A stretch of DNA of 64,000 nt, taken from an uncultured Lachnospiraceae bacterium. Its GTDB lineage: Bacteria; Bacillota; Clostridia; Lachnospirales; Lachnospiraceae. Of the stretch, positions 20,139-37,661 are shown in pieces (position 1 is the first letter of the stretch; each line of letters opens with the position of its first letter). Both the position numbers and the translations under genes were made by a program. A model generated the notes under the pieces. That model was given only the letters and a program-made list of their open reading frames with translations, was not told where the DNA came from and did not search any database. Where the stretch lies: the NCBI GenBank assembly GCA_902761585.1, contig CACWKX010000001.1:62001-126000 (forward strand). Reading direction: 5' to 3'.

Positions 20139-20149
20139 CTCTTTGTGAA

Positions 20150-20199
20150 GGCGACCACTTATCATCGAGTGCGGAGCACGAGATGACGGCGGAGTCGCC
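20150..20199 (-). repeat. Nested palindromic intergenic element after oppA
   Basis: An outer stem GGCGAC/GTCGCC (20150-20155 with 20194-20199) encloses TCATC/GATGA (20162-20166 with 20182-20186) and GTGC/GCAC (20169-20172 with 20176-20179). A competing hairpin CGGCG/CGCCG is also possible. The compact symmetric layout resembles REP-like intergenic repeats; copy number cannot be judged from one window. Confidence 0.45.
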
Positions 20200-20218
20200 G
20201 AATCGAGTAGGGCAGCAA

Positions 20219-28173: not shown

Positions 28174-28240
28174 CCATGCATCAAACGACCGAAAAATACG
28201 TATAATGCGCGGAAGACGGCACTCATAGCGTACCATATAG

Positions 28241-28278
28241 GAAAGGCGCCTGCATGTCCGACTGGAGACACAGGCGCC
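28241..28278 (-). terminator. Terminator after the fumarase beta-subunit gene
   Basis: GGCGCCTG (28245-28252) pairs perfectly with CAGGCGCC (28271-28278); the minus-strand stem is followed by TTTCC. It closes the Hdr-Flx-Frd-fumarase gene set. Confidence 0.65.
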
Positions 28279-28293
28279 CTTCTGTAAGGCTGT

Positions 28294-28875
28294 TTAAGCC
28301 TTCTGATTTTCCTCATGAAGCTTCAGGTACTCCGCCCTGCCACTCTTATAGAGGTCATTGCCTTCACTGTCGATGATCACCGTCACCGGAAAATCCTCAA
28401 CATAAAGCTCTCTGATTGCCTCAGGACCAAGATCCTCATAAGCAATCAGCTTACACTTCTTGATGTGCTTGGCAAGCAGTGCACCGGCCCCGCCGATGGC
28501 TCCGAAGTACACACCGCTGTACTTCTTCATCGCATCGACAACAGATGGCTGGCGGGCGCCTTTTCCGATCATGCCGCGGGCGCCGAGAGAAATCATCTCG
28601 GGTGCCCATTTGTCCATACGGCCGGCGGTTGTCGGTCCGGCGGATCCGATCACCTTTCCAGGCTCAGCCGGTGTCGGGCCGACATAGTAGATCGTTGCAT
28701 TCATCGGATCAAACGGAAGCGGGATTCCTTTTGCAAGGTTCTCCGTCATGCGCTCATGGGCTGCGTCGCGGGCCGTATAGATGGTTCCGGTCAGGAGAAC
28801 ATTGTCTCCCATGTGAAGTGTCCTGGCAAGCTCAGGAGTCAGCGGAAGCTGTACTCTGCGAAGTTCCTCAGCCAT
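28294..28875 (-). CDS. Class I fumarate hydratase, beta subunit
   Basis: The 193-residue protein matches the C-terminal swivelling domain of iron-sulfur hydro-lyases. Marks are the GPTTAGRMDKW block, GKGARQPSVVDA, and AIGGAGALLAKHIK. With the alpha subunit it forms the oxygen-sensitive [4Fe-4S] fumarase that interconverts malate and fumarate. Tartrate dehydratase beta subunits are close relatives, but the adjacent fumarate reductase genes favour fumarase. The start codon lies one base after the alpha-subunit stop and follows GGAGGTGA. Confidence 0.9.
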   Translation of the reverse strand: MAEELRRVQLPLTPELARTLHMGDNVLLTGTIYTARDAAHERMTENLAKGIPLPFDPMNATIYYVGPTPAEPGKVIGSAGPTTAGRMDKWAPEMISLGARGMIGKGARQPSVVDAMKKYSGVYFGAIGGAGALLAKHIKKCKLIAYEDLGPEAIRELYVEDFPVTVIIDSEGNDLYKSGRAEYLKLHEENQKA

Positions 28876-28876
28876 C

Positions 28877-29719
28877 TCAGATCACCTCCGTTTCATGTCT
28901 TGTCACGTGGCAGCTGATATTGACTGCACAGGGCATCCCGGCAATGTGTGTCGGAAGGGTTTCGATATTGACACCGACAGCGGTCGTCCTTCCGCCAAAG
29001 CCCTGCGGACCGATGCCCAGCTCATTGATCTTCTCAAGCATCTCATCCTCGAGAGCCGCATAATACGGATCCGGGTTGTGGGAGTCGATCGGACGGAGAA
29101 GCGCCTTCTTGGCTGCCAGGGCAACATGGTCGAAATTGCCGCCGATCCCGACCCCGACAACGATCGGCGGGCACGGATTCGGGCCTGCCTTTTCAACCGT
29201 CTCCAGAATGAAATCCTTGATGCCCTGAAGGCCCGCGGAGGGCTTGAACATGCGAAGCGCACTCATGTTTTCGGAGCCGAATCCCTTCGGCGCGACTGTG
29301 ATCTTGACCTTGTCTCCCGGGACAATGTCGACTGTAATCATAGCCGGTGTGTTGTCTCCGGTGTTGCCACGGCGGATCGGATCCGCTTCAACGCTCTTTC
29401 TCAGATATCCCTTTGTATAACCTCTTCTGACACCTTCATTGACGGCATCATACAGAGCGCCGCCTGTAAAATGCACTTCCTGTCCGACTTCGAGGAAGAT
29501 GCATGCCATTCCGGTGTCCTGGCAGATCGGGACATTCTCCTTGTCCGCGGTCTGAAAGTTGTCGATAATCTGGTCGAGAATCGTGCAGGCAATCGGTCCG
29601 TCCTCACAGGCTCTGCAGGCCTTGATGCCGGCCTGCATGTCCTGCGGAAGGTGACGGTTCGCGTTGATACACATCTTCTCGATTGCATCAGTGATGACGC
29701 TGACGTCTATGTCCCTCAT
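28877..29719 (-). CDS. Class I fumarate hydratase, alpha subunit
   Basis: The 280-residue catalytic subunit carries the cluster region. [14 protein letters not shown] and CQDTGMA hold cysteines expected to ligate the [4Fe-4S] cluster; a further Cys lies in [16 protein letters not shown]. The enzyme hydrates fumarate or dehydrates malate in the cytoplasm. The ATG at 29719 follows GGAGGAGA; an upstream extension is rejected. In this operon it would supply fumarate to the reductase encoded just upstream. Confidence 0.9.
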
Positions 29720-29735
29720 GTGTCTCCTCCGGTAA

Positions 29736-29753
29736 GCTGAAATTCGTTTCAGC
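29736..29753 (-). other. Intercistronic hairpin between frdA and the fumarase genes
   Basis: GCTGAAA (29736-29742) and TTTCAGC (29747-29753) form a perfect 7-bp stem with a four-base loop and no T tract. It may be an mRNA processing or stability element. Confidence 0.5.
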
Positions 29754-29762
29754 AGATCTTGT

Positions 29763-31391
29763 TTACTGGAACTGGAAGCCTCTCTGCTCGTACTCACGTG
29801 CGTGACGTGCGTACTTCGGAAGAAGAAGCGGGGAAACCTTTCCGGTGTTCAGACCTGCTTCCTCAAGCTCCTCGGCGTACTCTGTCACATGCTCCAGGGT
29901 TGGTTCGCCAAGCTCGACAGAAGCTGCTCTCTTTGCAGCGCTCTTTCCGGCATCACGGCCAAAGACAATGACATCCAGAAGAGAGTTCCCCATCAGACGG
30001 TTTCTTCCATGGACACCGCCGGAGCACTCACCCGCGACAAGCAGATTGTCGATGCTGGTCGCGCATTCAGAGTTGATCTCGACACCACCGTTCTGGTAGT
30101 GCAGGGTCGGGTAAACCGGAACCGGTACCTTGCGCATGTCAATGCCGTACTGCAGGAACATGCGGAGCATGGCCGGGATTCTGGCCTCAATCGTGCCTTC
30201 GCCGCCGAGCTGTTCGATCATCGGGGTATCGAGCCAGATGGCATCGCCAAGCGGTGTCGTGACACCTTCATGTCTGCCCTTGCACTCACGGATGATACCA
30301 GCCGCGGAGACATCGCGGGTTTCCAGCGGATGAAGATATGCAACTCCGTCTTTGTTGACAAGCTGTGCGCCGAGAGAACGAACCTTCTCGGTGACCAGTG
30401 CGCCCTGAATCTGAGACGGGAATGCAGCTCCGGTCGGATGATACTGAATTGTATCCTGATACAGCAGCGGAGCGCCTGCGCGGTATGCGAGGATCAGGCC
30501 GTCTGCTGTTGCACCGTAGTGGTTGGAGGTCGGGAAGTTCTGATAATGGAGTCTTCCGCAGCCGCCGGTCGCGAGGATGACAATCTTCGCGCGCGCAACA
30601 AGGTAGTCACCTGTCTCCATGTTCAGAAGAACAGCACCTGCGACCTGTCCCTTGGAATCCTTGATCAGCTCAACTGCCGAAGTGAATTCGATGACCGGGA
30701 TCTGGCGGTTCTGAACCTCATCGCGAAGGGTACGCATAATCTCCGCACCGGAATAATCCTTGCAGGCATGCATTCTCTTTCTGGAGGTTCCGCCGCCGTG
30801 TGTTGTGATCATGGTTCCATCCGGTGCCTTGTCGAACATAACACCGAGATCATTCAGCCATTTGATGGCATCCGGAGCTTCCATGACAAGCTTTTCAACA
30901 AGCTCACGCTTTGCGGCAAAATGGCCGCCGCCGTATGCATCCAGAAAATGCTGTACAGGAGAATCATTCTCCTTGTCTGCAGCCTGGATACCGCCTTCTG
31001 CCATCATGGTGTTGGCATCACCAGCGCGGAGCTTCGTCACGATCATGACCTTCGCACCGGCATTGTCAGCTTCGATTGCTGCGGAGCATCCTGCTCCGCC
31101 TCCGCCGATGACCAGGACGTCTGTGTCATAGTCGACCTTGGACAGGTCAATGTTCATGCCGTACAGGCGGCTGTTAGAATGAAGAAGCTCAGCAAGCTGC
31201 TTCGGAGCCTTCTGACCTTTGTTCGGGCCGATTTTGATGGTATCAAATGCATCCTCGCGATAATCCGGATGCCACTGTCTGAGGAGTTCATCCTTCTCCT
31301 CGGCGTTCAGACGCCTTGGTTCCGTGTGAAGACGCTCCGGACGGGTCGCCTCCACCTTTTTGATGGATTCCAGCATCTCTTCTGTATACAT
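29763..31391 (-). CDS. frdA: FrdA/TfrA-like fumarate reductase flavoprotein
   Basis: The 542-residue protein has an unusual 88-residue N-terminal extension before the FAD fold (IGGGGAG, 95-101). Fumarate reductase active-site residues are conserved: HPTG (319), Arg338 (KVRSLG), His431 (PTLHYQNGG) and Arg464 (HGRNRL). The histidine that covalently holds FAD in membrane succinate dehydrogenases and fumarate reductases is absent; the place reads AGDANTMMAEGG. FAD is therefore probably noncovalent, as in soluble thiol:fumarate reductase and L-aspartate oxidase. No membrane anchor genes are present. It likely reduces fumarate to succinate using electrons from the adjoining FrdB/Hdr/Flx proteins. 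Confidence 0.87.
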   Translation of the reverse strand: MYTEEMLESIKKVEATRPERLHTEPRRLNAEEKDELLRQWHPDYREDAFDTIKIGPNKGQKAPKQLAELLHSNSRLYGMNIDLSKVDYDTDVLVIGGGGAGCSAAIEADNAGAKVMIVTKLRAGDANTMMAEGGIQAADKENDSPVQHFLDAYGGGHFAAKRELVEKLVMEAPDAIKWLNDLGVMFDKAPDGTMITTHGGGTSRKRMHACKDYSGAEIMRTLRDEVQNRQIPVIEFTSAVELIKDSKGQVAGAVLLNMETGDYLVARAKIVILATGGCGRLHYQNFPTSNHYGATADGLILAYRAGAPLLYQDTIQYHPTGAAFPSQIQGALVTEKVRSLGAQLVNKDGVAYLHPLETRDVSAAGIIRECKGRHEGVTTPLGDAIWLDTPMIEQLGGEGTIEARIPAMLRMFLQYGIDMRKVPVPVYPTLHYQNGGVEINSECATSIDNLLVAGECSGGVHGRNRLMGNSLLDVIVFGRDAGKSAAKRAASVELGEPTLEHVTEYAEELEEAGLNTGKVSPLLLPKYARHAREYEQRGFQFQ

Positions 31392-31403
31392 CTTCGCCCC
31401 TCC

Positions 31404-32078
31404 TTATTTCTCGATCTCGCGGTTGTTGTAGAGCTCTTCAAGCTTTTCGGTCGGAAGAGATGCCATCTCCTTCATCGGCTCGTCGAACTTGCCTTCAGCA
31501 ATCTCCTCGACTCTCTTTTCGAGATGCTGGCTCTTCGGAGCAATATACTTGCCGGTCAGTCTTCTTGCAAGAAGGCCCACATACGGGTGAGAAATGCCGG
31601 CCGGGCATCTGGTCGAGCAGCAGCCGCACATGACACAGTCAAAGGACTCTTCTGCGCACTTCTCAAATTCTCCCCTCTGAGCGTACGCGATGTACTGCAT
31701 GACGTTCAGACTCTGAGGGCAGGCCTTCGTGCAGGCATTGCAGCCGATGCAGCTGTAGATCTCCGGATACAGCTCCATCATGACGTTATCGGAGACCTTC
31801 AGATCGTTGATGTTGTAGATTCTCTTATCCTGCGGATAGAACGGGATCGAGGCGATATACATGTTGTCCTCGACCTGCTTCTGGCAGGCAAGACAGGTAT
31901 GGAGCTCGTTGGAGCCCTTGATGCGGTAGATTGTAGCACAGGCACCGCAGAAGCCGTGACGGCATCCGACTCCGCGCTTCAGCGTGTAGCCGGCATACTC
32001 CCAGGCTGCGATGACGGTCAGACTCTCCGGAACGCTGTAGCGCTTTCCGTAGAAGTATACATTCACCATCTTCTCCAT
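31404..32078 (-). CDS. frdB: FrdB/TfrB-like iron-sulfur protein
   Basis: The 224-residue protein has a plant-type [2Fe-2S] motif (Cys39, 44, 47 and 62). Two full four-cysteine ferredoxin motifs follow (Cys110/113/116/120 and 148/151/154/158). Classical FrdB/SdhB carry one [3Fe-4S] site with only three cysteines; here both look like [4Fe-4S] sites, as in TfrB-type proteins. The heterodisulfide-reductase-like CCG domain that methanogen TfrB has at its C-terminus is missing; HdrB encoded upstream could fill that role. Start ATG 32078 follows AAGAAAGGA. It probably wires electrons into FrdA. Confidence 0.87.
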   Translation of the reverse strand: MEKMVNVYFYGKRYSVPESLTVIAAWEYAGYTLKRGVGCRHGFCGACATIYRIKGSNELHTCLACQKQVEDNMYIASIPFYPQDKRIYNINDLKVSDNVMMELYPEIYSCIGCNACTKACPQSLNVMQYIAYAQRGEFEKCAEESFDCVMCGCCSTRCPAGISHPYVGLLARRLTGKYIAPKSQHLEKRVEEIAEGKFDEPMKEMASLPTEKLEELYNNREIEK

Positions 32079-32103
32079 GGCTTTGTCCTTTCTTGAATGA
32101 GAA

Positions 32104-32134
32104 AAATTGTCATCCGGTCTGCTTGAGAACCGGA
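32104..32134 (-). terminator. Terminator-like hairpin in the frdB leader
   Basis: TCCGGT (32113-32118) pairs with ACCGGA (32129-32134). On the minus strand it is followed, after six bases, by a T-rich ATTTTTC. It sits between the large structured element and the frdB ribosome site. Confidence 0.4.
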
Positions 32135-32142
32135 CAGCATAC

Positions 32143-32286
32143 AGGCAGCCTCGGCAAGGCTCGCAGCAAAGCTGCTCGCTTTGCCGGGGCACCGTGGCTT
32201 CGCCACGCGCCCCACAGCCGTCCAGTCCGTTCAGGAAACGCACGCGAGGGTGCGTTCCTTCACGTCCTGAACGTCTGTGGCTGCCT
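32143..32286 (-). ncRNA. Large cloverleaf-like structured element between flxA and frdB
   Basis: Read on the minus strand, P1 AGGCAG/CTGCCT (32281-32286 with 32143-32148) closes three hairpins. P2 pairs CCACAG/CTGTGG (32275-32280 with 32212-32217) and continues as GTTCAGGA/TCCTGAAC (32265-32272 with 32229-32236) and AACGCAC/GTGCGTT (32250-32256 with 32237-32243). P3 pairs GTGGC/GCCAC around a three-base loop (32194-32206). P4 pairs CGGCAA/TTGCCG with inner GCAGC/GCTGC (32152-32186). Helices abut with almost no linker. It may be a cis-acting leader RNA of frdB, a processed small RNA, or a palindromic mobile repeat. The terminal inverted repeats fit the last option too. Confidence 0.6.
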
Positions 32287-32290
32287 TTGA

Positions 32291-33151
32291 TTAATATTCC
32301 TGGGGGAGTTCGTCAATCTGGTCGCATCTGAACACCGGTCCGTCCTTGCAGACGTACTTGGTTCCAATGTTGCAGCGGCCGCACTTGCCGATTCCGCATT
32401 TCATGCGAAGCTCCAGTGTCGTGTAGACCTGCTCCTTCGAGAAACCGAGTTCTGTCAGGCCCTGCAGGCAGAACTTGATCATGATCGGCGGCCCGCAGAT
32501 GATGGCGGTCAGGTCTGTATCAAATCCGACTTCCTTGAGGTAGGTCGGGACAAAGCCTACGTGACCGTTCCATTCCGGATCTTCCCTGTCGATTGTCAGA
32601 TAGACATTCGTGTTCGGGGCCTTCTCCCATACGTTCTGGATTTCCTCAAGCTTGACGAGATCCTTTTTGGAACGGGAGCCGTAGAGAATGTTGATGGTTC
32701 CGTAGTCCTCACGGTGTGCGAGACAGTAGTTGATGACAGAGCGAAGCGGTGCGAGACCGATTCCGCCTGCGATGAACAGGAGGTTCTTGCCCTTGAACTT
32801 GTCCTCGACCGGGAAATGATTGCCATAAGGGCCTCTGACCAGAATCTGGTCCCCCTCATGCAGACCGTGAAGATAAGTGGTGAGCTCTCCGCATTCCTTA
32901 ATGGAGAATTCGTTGTATTCTTTGACAGTGGGCGAGGATGTGATGGAGAACATCGCCTCGCCGATACCAGGTGCGCAGATCATCGCACACTGTCCAGGCA
33001 TCTGGTCAATCAGCTTGCCGCCGCCCGGTTTGATGACCTGGAAGGATCTCACATCGGGCGTTTCCTGCGTGATCTTCTGGATGATTCCGATCTGTGGGAT
33101 CAGAGCATCACGCACATATTTGTCGTTATGGCACAGGCATTCTTCAGACAT
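32291..33151 (-). CDS. flxA: FlxA-like FAD/NAD(P)H oxidoreductase subunit
   Basis: The 286-residue protein has a ferredoxin-reductase-type FAD domain (GPYGNHFP), an NAD(P)-binding domain (IAGGIGLAPLRS and CGPPIMI) and a C-terminal [2Fe-2S] motif (MKCGIGKCGRC with a further Cys in KYVCKDG). This matches FlxA/AsrB/HydG-type subunits, which oxidise NAD(P)H. In the Flx-Hdr complex of sulfate reducers it feeds electrons to the MvhD-like subunit and then HdrA. It overlaps flxC by eight bases. Its own stop is followed at once by the structured element. Confidence 0.87.
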   Translation of the reverse strand: MSEECLCHNDKYVRDALIPQIGIIQKITQETPDVRSFQVIKPGGGKLIDQMPGQCAMICAPGIGEAMFSITSSPTVKEYNEFSIKECGELTTYLHGLHEGDQILVRGPYGNHFPVEDKFKGKNLLFIAGGIGLAPLRSVINYCLAHREDYGTINILYGSRSKKDLVKLEEIQNVWEKAPNTNVYLTIDREDPEWNGHVGFVPTYLKEVGFDTDLTAIICGPPIMIKFCLQGLTELGFSKEQVYTTLELRMKCGIGKCGRCNIGTKYVCKDGPVFRCDQIDELPQEY

Positions 33152-34184
33152 CTGCGTTCTCCTTTCCCATCGTCTTGATCACTTTGACAATATTCAGTGC
33201 CTGCGGACACTTGTCCACGCAGCGGCCGCAGCCGACGCACATATACAGACCGTTGTTGTTCTCCGGGAAGTATACCAGCTTGTGCATGAATCTCTGGCGG
33301 TAGCGCTGCATCTGGGTCAGACGATTGTTCGCCGCAGCCATCAGCGTGAAGTCAGAGTACATGCAGCTGTCCCAGCAGCGGTATCTCTGGATGCCATGAC
33401 CGGTATTGAAGTCCTTGATGTCATAGCACTGGCAGGTCGGACAGACAAAGGTACAGGTTCCGCATGCCAGGCATGCATCCGAGAGCTCCTTCCAGTGAGG
33501 ATCATTGAACTTCTCCTCAACCTTGCCGGGGCCCCATCCTTCAAGCGAAAGGTGCGTGTAGGGAAGCGATTCGACAATGCTGCGGATCGAATCCTGTTCC
33601 TTTGCGATCTTGTCACCGGCACCCTCCGCATCCTCGAAGGCATCTGCGAACTGATCCAGCCAGGCGGTACCCTTCTCTGTCTGCGCTTCAAGATAGAAGA
33701 ACTCGTCGATCTTCCACATAGCGACATCTGCATCCGGAGCCGCAGCATCCGTGCCGAAAACTTTGCAGAAGCAGGTCTGCGCCGGTTTGTGGCATGCAAG
33801 CGAAACCAGAACGGCATGTTCTCTTCTCGCCTTGTAGAAGGTGTCAACCGGCTCCTGGTTCAGGAAAACCTGATCCATGACCGTCAGTGCCTTCACATCA
33901 CAGGGACGGATTCCAAATACGCAGAATGGCTTCTCGGTCAGCTTCATCGGGCTGATCTCAAATCCATTGTCATCATGGTGAACCATGTAAAGCGTCTGGC
34001 ACTGCGGGAAAAAGACATCCTTCGGGCTCTTGACCGTTTTCAGCGTGTCAAGGTCTGCCACTCTGCTGTCATCCCACAGTCCCCAGTTTGTCACATCGGC
34101 CATCTTCACAGGTGTGAAGAGATCCATTGCAGCCGATACCTCAGCAAAGAGCTTCGGGAGGTTCTCTTTCGCAATCTTTTTCAT
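33144..34184 (-). CDS. flxC: FlxC-like iron-sulfur subunit
   Basis: The 346-residue protein resembles AsrA/HydB-type subunits. The N-terminal two thirds contain scattered Cys motifs (RPCDVKAL, and LACHKPAQTCFC). The C-terminal part carries two ferredoxin sites, CLACGTCTFVCP and CVGCGRCVDKCP. It probably carries electrons inside the Flx module. Its start overlaps the flxB stop by four bases. Confidence 0.84.
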   Translation of the reverse strand: MKKIAKENLPKLFAEVSAAMDLFTPVKMADVTNWGLWDDSRVADLDTLKTVKSPKDVFFPQCQTLYMVHHDDNGFEISPMKLTEKPFCVFGIRPCDVKALTVMDQVFLNQEPVDTFYKARREHAVLVSLACHKPAQTCFCKVFGTDAAAPDADVAMWKIDEFFYLEAQTEKGTAWLDQFADAFEDAEGAGDKIAKEQDSIRSIVESLPYTHLSLEGWGPGKVEEKFNDPHWKELSDACLACGTCTFVCPTCQCYDIKDFNTGHGIQRYRCWDSCMYSDFTLMAAANNRLTQMQRYRQRFMHKLVYFPENNNGLYMCVGCGRCVDKCPQALNIVKVIKTMGKENADV

Positions 34185-35173
34185 CCTCTGCTCCTCTCCA
34201 GCCCGGCTGCGGGCTCAACATCGTGAAGCGTGTATGCGGTCAGAGGTCCGGGAGTCGTCGTATCCGAACCGGCCTGGAACTCTCCATACAGGTCATCTGC
34301 ATCCAGAATGAACTTGCGGTTGAACAGATGCAGCGGGATGTTCTGCGGACAGACTCTGGAACACTCACCACAGTCTGTACATCTTCCTGCGACATGGAAG
34401 GCGCGTATGATGTGGAACATGTTCTCTTCAAATGTATCTGCGTTTGCCTTCTGGGCAGTGTCATATTTCGTATTGTCAAAGACACAGTGTCTGCAGTTGC
34501 ATGCCGGGCACACATTTCTGCAGGCGTTGCAGCGAATGCACTTTGAAAGCTCTGAGCGGAAGAACGCATAGCGCTCCGCCGGTGTCATCGCCTCAATCTT
34601 TCGGACTTCCTCAAAGCGGTCAGCTCCCTCTGCAACTGTATCCTTGGAATCGAGGAGCTTCTCATCGAAGATCTGGTGTTCCTTCGTCTTGCAGAAGAAG
34701 CATCTTTCCAGCATGACATCGCGATAATCAATGTCCTTTTCCTCGCCGTAAATTGTCTTTACATGAATCCGGTCGCATGCATCGCTCAGCTCGATTCCGG
34801 AGATCTCGGCGATATCGCCAAGCCCCATTGCGGCAAACTTTCTGTGGTCGAGCTTGCCCTTGCAGCCGACACCGATGATGTACGCATTGTCGCGGTTCAC
34901 CTGATGCTCCTTGATCAGCTGGTTGAAGCTGAACGTGTCGCACGGTTTCAGAAAGACAAGCGTCTTTCCTTCCAGCTTCGTTGCCGCAATCATGTATTTG
35001 CTGAGGTTTGCTCCGCAGAATCCATTGTAAATGAAATCCTTCTCAAGCTCCTGAGCAGACGTAAAGATATGCGGTTCCGGATTGTACGGCAGATCCCCTT
35101 TCTTCCAGCCGAGAACGCGGACGACAGTGCCGTCAGCGAGGAGTTCTTTTGCGCGGTTGATCAATTCCTGCAT
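34181..35173 (-). CDS. flxB: FlxB-like iron-sulfur subunit (FrhB-related)
   Basis: The 330-residue protein is related to the F420-hydrogenase beta-type fold. FCGANLSKYM, FLKPCDTF and GVGCKGKLDH lie in the first 120 residues. Two ferredoxin motifs follow (CIRCNACRNVCP and CTDCGECSRVCP). It has no visible F420-specific feature; in Flx complexes the subunit relays electrons. The ATG at 35173 follows GGAGGA and overlaps the mvhD-like gene by 13 bases. Confidence 0.84.
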   Translation of the reverse strand: MQELINRAKELLADGTVVRVLGWKKGDLPYNPEPHIFTSAQELEKDFIYNGFCGANLSKYMIAATKLEGKTLVFLKPCDTFSFNQLIKEHQVNRDNAYIIGVGCKGKLDHRKFAAMGLGDIAEISGIELSDACDRIHVKTIYGEEKDIDYRDVMLERCFFCKTKEHQIFDEKLLDSKDTVAEGADRFEEVRKIEAMTPAERYAFFRSELSKCIRCNACRNVCPACNCRHCVFDNTKYDTAQKANADTFEENMFHIIRAFHVAGRCTDCGECSRVCPQNIPLHLFNRKFILDADDLYGEFQAGSDTTTPGPLTAYTLHDVEPAAGLERSRG

Positions 35174-35676
35174 CTGATATCCTCCAATCTCACGTTCCTG
35201 CCGAGGTTTTTGATCGTATCTGCAAACTCGTTCATGATCGATGCGAACCTCGCCCCTTCCGATGCGGAAACCCACTCAACACGGACTCTTCCTTTGTCGA
35301 CGCCCAGATAGTCCAGCATCGAAATCAGAAGGGCCATTCTTCTGCGTGTATAGTAGTTTCCTGTCGTATAGTGGCAGTCTCCCGGGTGGCAGCCGCAGAT
35401 GATGACACCGTCGGCGCCCTTTTCAAATGCCCTCATAATGAACAGCGGATTGACACGCCCGGAACATGGGACACGGATAATCTTGATGTCCGCCGGGTAA
35501 TCCGCTCTGTTGTTTCCGGCAAGATCGGCGCCTGCATAGGAACACCAGTTGCAGCAGAATGCGACAATCTTCGGGGTGAAGGTACTCTCCTTCTTTGCGT
35601 CCGCCTCACCAAGATATGCGAGGTTCTCTTTTTCAAGCATCGCCTCCGGGGAGGCAGTCTTTTCGATTACTGGCAT
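35161..35676 (-). CDS. flxD: MvhD/FlxD-type electron-transfer subunit
   Basis: The 171-residue protein shows the MvhD signature cysteines: FCCNWCSYAGAD, RVPCSGRV and CGCHPGDCHY, which bind a [2Fe-2S] cluster. MvhD/FlxD physically links an electron donor module to HdrA. An N-terminal tail of about 35 residues precedes the domain. Its start overlaps hdrA by ten bases and follows GGAGGTAG. Confidence 0.9.
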   Translation of the reverse strand: MPVIEKTASPEAMLEKENLAYLGEADAKKESTFTPKIVAFCCNWCSYAGADLAGNNRADYPADIKIIRVPCSGRVNPLFIMRAFEKGADGVIICGCHPGDCHYTTGNYYTRRRMALLISMLDYLGVDKGRVRVEWVSASEGARFASIMNEFADTIKNLGRNVRLEDIRCRN

Positions 35677-37661
35677 ACTGTATCTACCTCCGCCATGATC
35701 TGTCTGTTGGTGAATCCCTTCAGGTTCATCGCGCCGGACGGGCATGCGACTGAGCAGGCACCGCAACCCTTGCACAAAGCCGAGTTGACCGAAGCAATTC
35801 TTCTGGTCTCACGCAGACCATGATCACGAATTTCCTTGTCGACATAAGTAATCGCGCCGTACGGGCAGACATTTGCGCAGACGGAGCAGCCGTTGCAGTA
35901 CAGCTCATCCGGTTCCGCAATGCACGGATTCGTCTTCAGCTTATCCTTTGCGAGGAGGCCAACAACCTTGATGGCGGCCGCACCTGCCTGGGCAACTGTC
36001 TCCGGGATATCCTTCGGTCCCTGGACGACACCGGACATGAAGACGCCGGCGGTTGCTGCCTCAACCGGACGGAGCTTTGCATGTGCTTCGTTGAGGAAGT
36101 TGTTGTTGTCGATGGAGAGTGTCAGCATCGTTGCCAGCTTCCGGATATCCGGATTCGGCTCGATTGCGCCTGCAAGGACAACCATATCCGCATCGATCTC
36201 GACATCCTTCTGGTCAAGAAGATCAACGCCGTGAACGTGAAGTTTACCGTTCGGAAGCGGTGTCACCTTTCCGACATTGCCCTTGATGTAGTCAACACCA
36301 TACTGCTCGACTGCTCTGCGGTAGAATTCATCAAAATTCTTCCCAGGCGTACGGACATCGATGTAGAACACATGGATGTTGGTGTCCGGATAGTGATCCT
36401 TGATCAGGATTGCCTGCTTTGCTGTGTACATACAGCAGATCTTGGAACAGTAGGTCTTTCCTCTCCTGTCATCCGGCGCGCATCTGGAGCCGACACACTG
36501 GATGAAGACCATTTCCTTCGGCTGCTTATGGTCGGACATCCTTTCAAGATGGCCGGATGTCGGACCGGCTGCGTTCATCAGTCGTTCCAGCTCGATGGAG
36601 GAAACGACATCCTTGCTCACACCGTAGCCGAGCTCGCCGAACTTGTGAAGATCGATCATGTCAAATCCGGTTGCAACGACAATCGCACCGTATTTCTCCT
36701 CGATGATCTCATCCTTCAGCTCGTAGTCGACTGCATGGGACGGGCAGACCTTGGAGCAGATTCCGCACTTTCCGGTCTTGAAATGGATGCAGTGCTCCTT
36801 GTCGATGACCGGAACATTCGGAATCGCCTGTGCGAATGGAATATAGATCGCCGGTCTTGTATCGAGCCCTCTGTTGAATTCATTCGGAGTTTTTCTGGAC
36901 GGACACTTGGACGTGCAGATTCCGCAGCCTGTGCAGTCCTCAGCCCTCACGGAACGGGAATGTTTTGTGATCTGGACTGTGAAGTTTCCGACGAAGCCAG
37001 ACACATCCGTCACCTCTGAGTATGTGAAGATCCGGATATTCGGGTTCTGGTTGACCTCTGTCATCCTCGGAGTAAGGATGCAGGATGAGCAGTCGAGCGT
37101 CGGGAATGTCTTGTCCAGCTGGCTCATGCGTCCGCCGATGGACGGAAGTTTTTCAACGATATCGACCTTGTATCCGGCATCCGCAATGTCAAGCGCTGTC
37201 TGAATTCCTGCGATTCCGCCGCCGATGACCAGGGCGCGCTTTGTAACTGTACTCTCACCTTCCTGGAGCGGGCTGTCCAGATTCACCTTGGCGACAGCCG
37301 TCTTCATCAGCGTGATCGCCTTCGGCGTTCCTTCCTCCATATCCTTGTGGACCCAGGAACACTGCTCACGGATATTGGCGATCTCTACCATGAACGGATT
37401 GATGCCGGCCTTCTCGGCAACGGCACGGAATGTAGCCTCATGCATACGCGGAGAGCAGGAGCAGACCACGATTGCGGTAAGACCGTAATCCTTAATTGCC
37501 TGGGCGATCAGATTCTGACCGTTCTCGGAACACATATATGTGTAATCAACGGCATAGACCACGCCCGGCTCATGTTTGGCTGCCTCGGCGACTTTGGAAA
37601 CATCAACCGTAGCGGCGATGTTTGTGCCGCAGTGACAGACAAATACACCGATTCTTTGCAC
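35667..37661 (-). CDS. hdrA: HdrA-like FAD-dependent heterodisulfide reductase subunit A
   Basis: The 664-residue protein is the flavin hub of Hdr complexes. It has the N-terminal CHCG (9-12) segment, an FAD-binding IGGGIAG (146), the TLDCSSCILTPRM block (189) and four ferredoxin motifs. These start at Cys243, Cys291 (a spaced variant), Cys589 and Cys630. HdrA bifurcates electrons from a mid-potential donor to ferredoxin and a high-potential acceptor. The start codon is GTG with GGAGGTGA upstream. The position between hdrC and the MvhD-like gene matches known Hdr-Flx operons. Confidence 0.92.
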   Translation of the reverse strand: MQRIGVFVCHCGTNIAATVDVSKVAEAAKHEPGVVYAVDYTYMCSENGQNLIAQAIKDYGLTAIVVCSCSPRMHEATFRAVAEKAGINPFMVEIANIREQCSWVHKDMEEGTPKAITLMKTAVAKVNLDSPLQEGESTVTKRALVIGGGIAGIQTALDIADAGYKVDIVEKLPSIGGRMSQLDKTFPTLDCSSCILTPRMTEVNQNPNIRIFTYSEVTDVSGFVGNFTVQITKHSRSVRAEDCTGCGICTSKCPSRKTPNEFNRGLDTRPAIYIPFAQAIPNVPVIDKEHCIHFKTGKCGICSKVCPSHAVDYELKDEIIEEKYGAIVVATGFDMIDLHKFGELGYGVSKDVVSSIELERLMNAAGPTSGHLERMSDHKQPKEMVFIQCVGSRCAPDDRRGKTYCSKICCMYTAKQAILIKDHYPDTNIHVFYIDVRTPGKNFDEFYRRAVEQYGVDYIKGNVGKVTPLPNGKLHVHGVDLLDQKDVEIDADMVVLAGAIEPNPDIRKLATMLTLSIDNNNFLNEAHAKLRPVEAATAGVFMSGVVQGPKDIPETVAQAGAAAIKVVGLLAKDKLKTNPCIAEPDELYCNGCSVCANVCPYGAITYVDKEIRDHGLRETRRIASVNSALCKGCGACSVACPSGAMNLKGFTNRQIMAEVDTVCQ

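Follow-up and report, generated by a model that had tools for sequence, protein, structure and literature searches.

A cloverleaf-folding element inside a Lachnospiraceae operon is probably a diverged copy of a small mobile repeat

An element that folds into a cloverleaf lies between an asrB/flxA-like and a tfrB/frdB-like gene in the genome of a Porcincola-like Lachnospiraceae. We consider it probable, at a likelihood of roughly 0.8, that this element belongs to a superfamily of small non-autonomous mobile (MITE-like) elements of the Lachnospiraceae, as a diverged copy specific to its lineage. Members of the superfamily combine terminal inverted repeats with a three-hairpin core and thus form a cloverleaf on either strand. 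The element would have entered the short flxA-frdB gap in an ancestor of two Porcincola species, by a transposition for which the transposase was supplied in trans; since then, it would have diverged and probably become immobile. A preliminary description of this DNA had left open a mobile intergenic repeat as the alternative to a riboswitch-like structure; dispersal, terminal inverted repeats and target-site duplications in other Lachnospiraceae support that alternative.

The window, i.e., the whole stretch of 64,000 nucleotides analysed, contains an operon on the minus strand (28294-37661) that unites HdrA2-like, AsrAB/Flx-like, TfrAB-like and fumarase genes. Read along the minus strand, the order is HdrA2-like, AsrA-like, AsrB/FlxA-like, the element, TfrB-like, TfrA-like and two fumarase subunits. 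The fumarase subunits passed the NCBIfam cut-offs, while the HdrA2-, Asr- and Tfr-like proteins scored below them, which suggests an unnamed type of electron-bifurcating fumarate reductase. Genes, element and a terminator-like hairpin all lie on the minus strand, so the RNA sense of the element runs from 32288 to 32141:

32291..33151, minus strand: upstream gene, AsrB/HydG/FlxA-like FAD/NAD(P) oxidoreductase subunit (matches below curated cut-offs)
32141..32288, minus strand: whole cloverleaf element (folds; matched by model R2, built from copies of another genus)
32279..32286, minus strand: 5' half of the closing helix or terminal inverted repeat, AGGCAGCC on the minus strand (fold)
32214..32278, minus strand: arm H1, a long hairpin with a CUCG-type tip (fold, two-species comparison)
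32186..32213, minus strand: arm H2, GGGGCGCGTGGCGAAGCCACGGTGCCCC, with a GAA triloop at the tip (fold, two-species comparison)
32153..32185, minus strand: arm H3, GGCAAAGCGAGCAGCTTTGCTGCGAGCCTTGCC, with the motif CGAG-stem-triloop-stem-CGAG (motif comparison, R2 match)
32143..32150, minus strand: 3' half of the closing helix or terminal inverted repeat, GGCTGCCT on the minus strand (fold)
32136-32111, minus strand: terminator-like hairpin of 9 pairs with the tail ACAATTTTTC, present in both Porcincola species
31404..32078, minus strand: downstream gene, TfrB/FrdB-like iron-sulfur subunit (weak match, below cut-off)
31391-29763, minus strand: TfrA-like flavoprotein gene, following the frdB-like gene

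The flxA-like gene overlaps the preceding gene and frdB and frdA are 12 bp apart, whereas flxA and frdB are separated by 209 bp in the window. The element therefore fills the only large gap of the operon, as had been claimed. Positions 32143-32286 fold into a closing helix of 8 bp and three long arms, in agreement with the initial reading of the letters, and no other fold in the window is as strong (MFE -85.5 kcal/mol and z -6.85 on the plus strand). On the minus strand, from which the operon is transcribed, the z-score was -7.51 over 32100-32310, and after GC correction the element ranked first among all 140-nt windows in the 64 kb. All 8 pairs of the closing helix are identical in P. intestinalis. 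The tip of H1, GCTCGC, is also intact there, while the window copy is without one closing pair.

We then turned to covariance models for relatives of the element. Model R1, built from the window copy and the P. intestinalis copy, matched other genera, including the genome G250 at E 6.5e-7, in which at least 47 dispersed matches to the H2-H3 module were found. Model R2 was built from G250 copies alone, without Porcincola. It matched the window copy at E 7.9e-8 (over 664 kb), the P. intestinalis copy at 9.5e-9 and, in another species, an insert between flxA and frdB (L024) at 1.2e-6; otherwise, the 664 kb yielded only a partial match in G003 and one opposite-strand palindromic match. When R2 was run over 505 kb of frdB-type loci, all three matches lay at the flxA-frdB junction. 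Among 397 genomes, R2 matched at least 19 genomes from at least 18 Lachnospiraceae genera, a count that is a lower bound, with seven candidates scored per genome. The window genome itself was missed in this search, most likely owing to the seven-candidate scoring.

The G250 copies, of about 155 bp, consist of a terminal inverted repeat GTAAYTATTCAGCACCCC, a variable H1 with the tip GAGCTTGCTC, H2 GGGCGGACAAGCGGCGAAGCCGCTCTGTCCGCCC, H3 AACGAGGAACGCGAAGCGTTCCGAGTCT and the second terminal inverted repeat. The window element has the same architecture, with a closing terminal inverted repeat followed by H1, H2 and H3 in this order. In single-sequence folds of representatives, the tips recur: CUUG or CUCG in H1, GAA/GNA or four-base G-loops in H2, and GAA/AAA-type triloops between CGAG boxes in H3. 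CUUG and GNRA loops are unusually stable in RNA, as are GNA loops in single-stranded DNA. The CGAG motif of H3 is common to the copies of other genera and to one dispersed family of the window genome. The pattern CGAG-stem-short loop-stem-CGAG is exact in the window copy and occurs 5 times in 441 kb, compared to 0-2 times in shuffled sequence. At one G250 locus and its neighbours (L196, ~1330-1660), the H3 arm and terminal repeat stand in tandem, as if the 3' module had been duplicated head to tail.

Next, we compared the insertion site among relatives. Across 80 Lachnospiraceae frdB loci, flxA and frdB are typically 11-40 bp apart (median 23), and in three genomes of the same genus (G005, G011, G018) the gap is short and empty, at 34-41 bp. 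Among the same-genus genomes compared, the element was found only in the window genome (G000) and in P. intestinalis (G004, locus L021), the two regions being 91% identical over 211 bp. The next closest genome, G003, has a 290-bp gap holding a related H2-H3 module (the partial R2 match, E 0.02). Inserts of at least 100 bp occurred at the flxA-frdB junction in 11 of 77 operons, but at the hdr-flx junction in 0 of 74 and at the frdB-frdA junction in 0 of 79. Most inserts at the flxA-frdB junction are structured and differ in sequence. The junction tolerates or favours insertions, without one conserved RNA. The bias towards it is no more than suggestive, given the tight coupling at the other two.

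Two Lachnospiraceae carry inserts of about 750 bp in this gap (L074, L081). At L067 and L082, the inserts, 179 and 273 bp long, fold strongly (MFE values of -91 and -116 kcal/mol); they did not match the cloverleaf models and are possibly other palindromic element classes.

These comparisons bear directly on the idea of a cis-acting riboswitch or attenuator for frdB-frdA, in which the cloverleaf would sense a signal and control the terminator-like hairpin. The element does fold strongly in the transcript sense, it resembles riboswitches and structured leaders in that a terminator-like hairpin follows a multi-stem junction, and three double changes between the two Porcincola species are compensatory. 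However, most relatives, also within the genus, have the site without the element, and the other inserts found there are mostly different. Moreover, copies of this class adjoin unrelated genes (transporters, MatE, ApbE, a histidine kinase, an ornithine cyclodeaminase-family gene and others) in no fixed orientation: by crude ORF calls, 18 were sense, 12 antisense, 7 divergent and 6 convergent. The fold also leaves almost no unpaired conserved core to which a ligand could bind. No Rfam 15 family was matched at the gathering threshold, and sub-threshold hits to glutamine and c-di-GMP riboswitch models at relaxed thresholds were judged to be chance. The riboswitch-like reading of the preliminary description is therefore highly improbable. 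The open-access literature searched holds no description of such repeats in Lachnospiraceae or Clostridia, and the element family is thus without an earlier description in Rfam or in these papers.

A covariance model with a check for compensatory changes had been proposed at the outset, and it gave a positive result at both levels. Between the window element and its P. intestinalis counterpart, 16 of 148 compared positions differ. Of the 56 pairs, 3 show double changes that stay paired, all of them in arm H1, and 3 others are unpaired in P. intestinalis; at least 3 compensated pairs arose in 0.065% of trials when changes were placed at random (P 6.5e-4). At fourfold sites in the genes on either side, the two species differ by 10-22%, and the element sequence therefore evolves at about a neutral pace. 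Among 22 G250 copies, double compensatory changes affected 21 of 57 pairs, a count reached in 0 of 500 shuffles, and covariation cells numbered 59 compared to 13 in shuffles and 4-11 in slid controls. Since the dispersed copies covary too, the element cannot be called a riboswitch on the strength of this covariation.

The same compensatory pattern could arise without selection, by template switching in quasi-palindromes. This opens the way to another explanation, namely that quasi-palindrome correction built the arms as a cluster of palindromes without common descent, the likeness to other copies being convergence. The element occupies a single site in the sampled stretches of its own genome, which would fit, and unrelated palindromes can also receive scores from covariance models built on long palindromes. 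Against this stand the reciprocal model matches at E 1e-6 or better, the tip and CGAG motifs common across 18 genera and the presence or absence of the element at a syntenic site. Convergence is accordingly improbable in our view.

Evidence for mobility comes from families whose terminal inverted repeats begin with GTAA (GTAACTATTCAGC), which occur in G250, G095, G280 and other genomes. At GTAA-type ends in a fixed 8-bp register, 5 of 38 copies had perfect direct repeats and 11 of 38 were identical at 6 or more of the 8 positions, a count in which element L227 was entered on both strands; among control pairs, flanks this similar were found in 1 of 228. Target duplications of 8 bp were found in the G250 and G095 copies. 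The ISBst12-group element ISDge4 has terminal inverted repeats GTGACTACTCAGCA / GTAACTGCTCAGCA, an 8-bp repeat and one transposase of 449 amino acids (PMC12898284). Given that GTAA ends and 8-bp duplications are as in the ISBst12 group, the cloverleaf families with such ends would be transposable, very probably as MITEs moved by ISBst12-type IS66 transposases. The IS66 protein TnpB (PF05717) was absent from G250, and a helper was therefore sought as an ISBst12-type single-gene IS66 element. Such a helper was found only on an IMG/VR contig (L278, 645-2440), with GTAACTATTCAGCACCCC ends, the 8-bp duplication CTATGGCA and a 440-aa frame containing DDE_Tnp_IS66 (PF03050). This IS66 element of the ISBst12 type is complete, has GTAACTATTCAGC ends and is a candidate helper for the MITEs; the contig is presumed to be from a phage. 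Y1/RAYT transposases were rejected as the mover: among 21 Y1-transposase loci in seven genomes, one weak copy lay nearby (L277, E 1.7e-4).

The window copy is outside the GTAA-ended group, with which it has the core in common and not the ends. Its ends read A[AC]AGGCAGCC and no target duplication was visible at the site; its own transposition is for these reasons inferred from its relatives. It would then be a diverged or differently mobilised relic. The likeness to ISBst12-group IS66 MITEs extends to the GTAA-starting terminal inverted repeat (GTAACTATTCAGCACC) and 8-bp duplications of the G250, G095 and G280 families and to the complete L278 element, which has such ends and encodes a PF03050 transposase. 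In contrast, the window copy differs in its ends and is without a duplication, and the three-hairpin core, common to families with other ends, was not seen in the complete L278 element.

That families with different ends have one core is not accounted for by simple transposition. As a tentative extension, the cloverleaf core may be a module of its own, with a structure under selection, be it as folded RNA or as single-stranded DNA. It would have been joined to several unrelated sets of ends (GTAACTATTCAGC, GCATAAGCAGA, GAGCCATGC and A[AC]AGGCAGCC among them) and have become widespread in the Lachnospiraceae. Such a module might spread, e.g., by aiding transposition or by protecting the transcript of the host where the element has inserted.

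Near-identical copies scattered between unrelated genes had been named as the sign of a repeat element; they were found in another genus, while the window genome has one detectable copy in the stretches sampled. BLAST of the element against its own genome and relatives returned one copy and its P. intestinalis orthologue, the other matches being 15-25-bp chance or arm matches. Most of the weak arm matches turned out to lie in coding DNA. R1 found no further copy in 658 kb, including 441 kb sampled from the window genome.

Three of the weak arm matches, in the same-genus genome G001, exposed a separate dispersed palindromic repeat (L105, L110-L130; 19 matches, arm CATCTCGCAGCAAAGCTGCCCGATG) that lies beside terminators. 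A second dispersed hairpin repeat has 31 partly overlapping matches each in the window genome and P. intestinalis, among them L148, L150, L158, L160 and L161-L189. Its sequence is TTTGTGAAGGCGACCGCTCATCATCGAGTGCGGAGCACGAGATGACGGCGGAGTCGCCGAATCG, with the H3-type arm ATCGAGTGCGGAGCACGAGAT, and it often directly follows an intrinsic terminator or the T run of one. One copy lies in the window:

~20140-20205, plus strand: copy of the second dispersed hairpin family

R1 and R2 found no link between this family and the cloverleaf class, only the CGAG-stem-CGAG motif of H3 being common to both.

If the element is a diverged mobile repeat, it could still matter for expression. In the polycistronic mRNA, the cloverleaf might form a very stable roadblock, which, together with the terminator-like hairpin, might lower the expression of frdB-frdA-fum or uncouple it from the upstream hdr-flx genes. 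An insert of mobile origin may even have been domesticated, being kept as a partial terminator or mRNA decay barrier between the hdr-flx and frd-fum modules. The concentration of long inserts at this one junction, several of them independent in sequence, and the position of all three R2 matches there are consistent with this. However, insertion at the other junctions, which overlap or span about 12 bp, may be more harmful, and 66 of the 77 operons are without an insert. The hairpin predicted before frdB is present as described, outside the cloverleaf class, but is weak as evidence: 1 such hairpin was found against 0.4 expected in shuffles, and a spacer precedes its T run. Domestication is thus possible though doubtful; it refines the mobile origin and overlaps it, so that the confidences in the two do not sum to one.

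The enterobacterial ERIC/RU-1 and RU-2 repeats are 100-170 bp long, intergenic, palindromic, transcribed with operons and non-coding. As small palindromic MITE-like repeats, they resemble the cloverleaf elements in these traits (PMC2759123). They are set apart from the defined cloverleaf with its conserved tips and covarying arms in a different phylum. REPs are 20-40 bp long with a GTAG or CGTC tag (PMC3733652). As in REP/RAYT systems, the hairpins of the cloverleaf elements are intergenic and have very short, stable loops; unlike REPs, the cloverleaf ends inspected carry no GTAG/CGTC tag, and co-location with Y1 was limited to the one weak case.

Catalogues cover the small mobile elements in gut Firmicutes only poorly. 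If our reading is true, a family-wide, covarying cloverleaf core with exchangeable ends would account for many structured intergenic regions, which structured-RNA pipelines may mistake for riboswitches, and the reason for a transposable element to preserve a multi-arm fold would become testable. The locus would be a natural example of an electron-bifurcation/fumarate-reductase operon split by a mobile cluster of hairpins.

The second strongest fold of the window (28176-28315, minus strand, z -4.0) is located between a short gene and that for the fumarase beta subunit and is probably a terminator.
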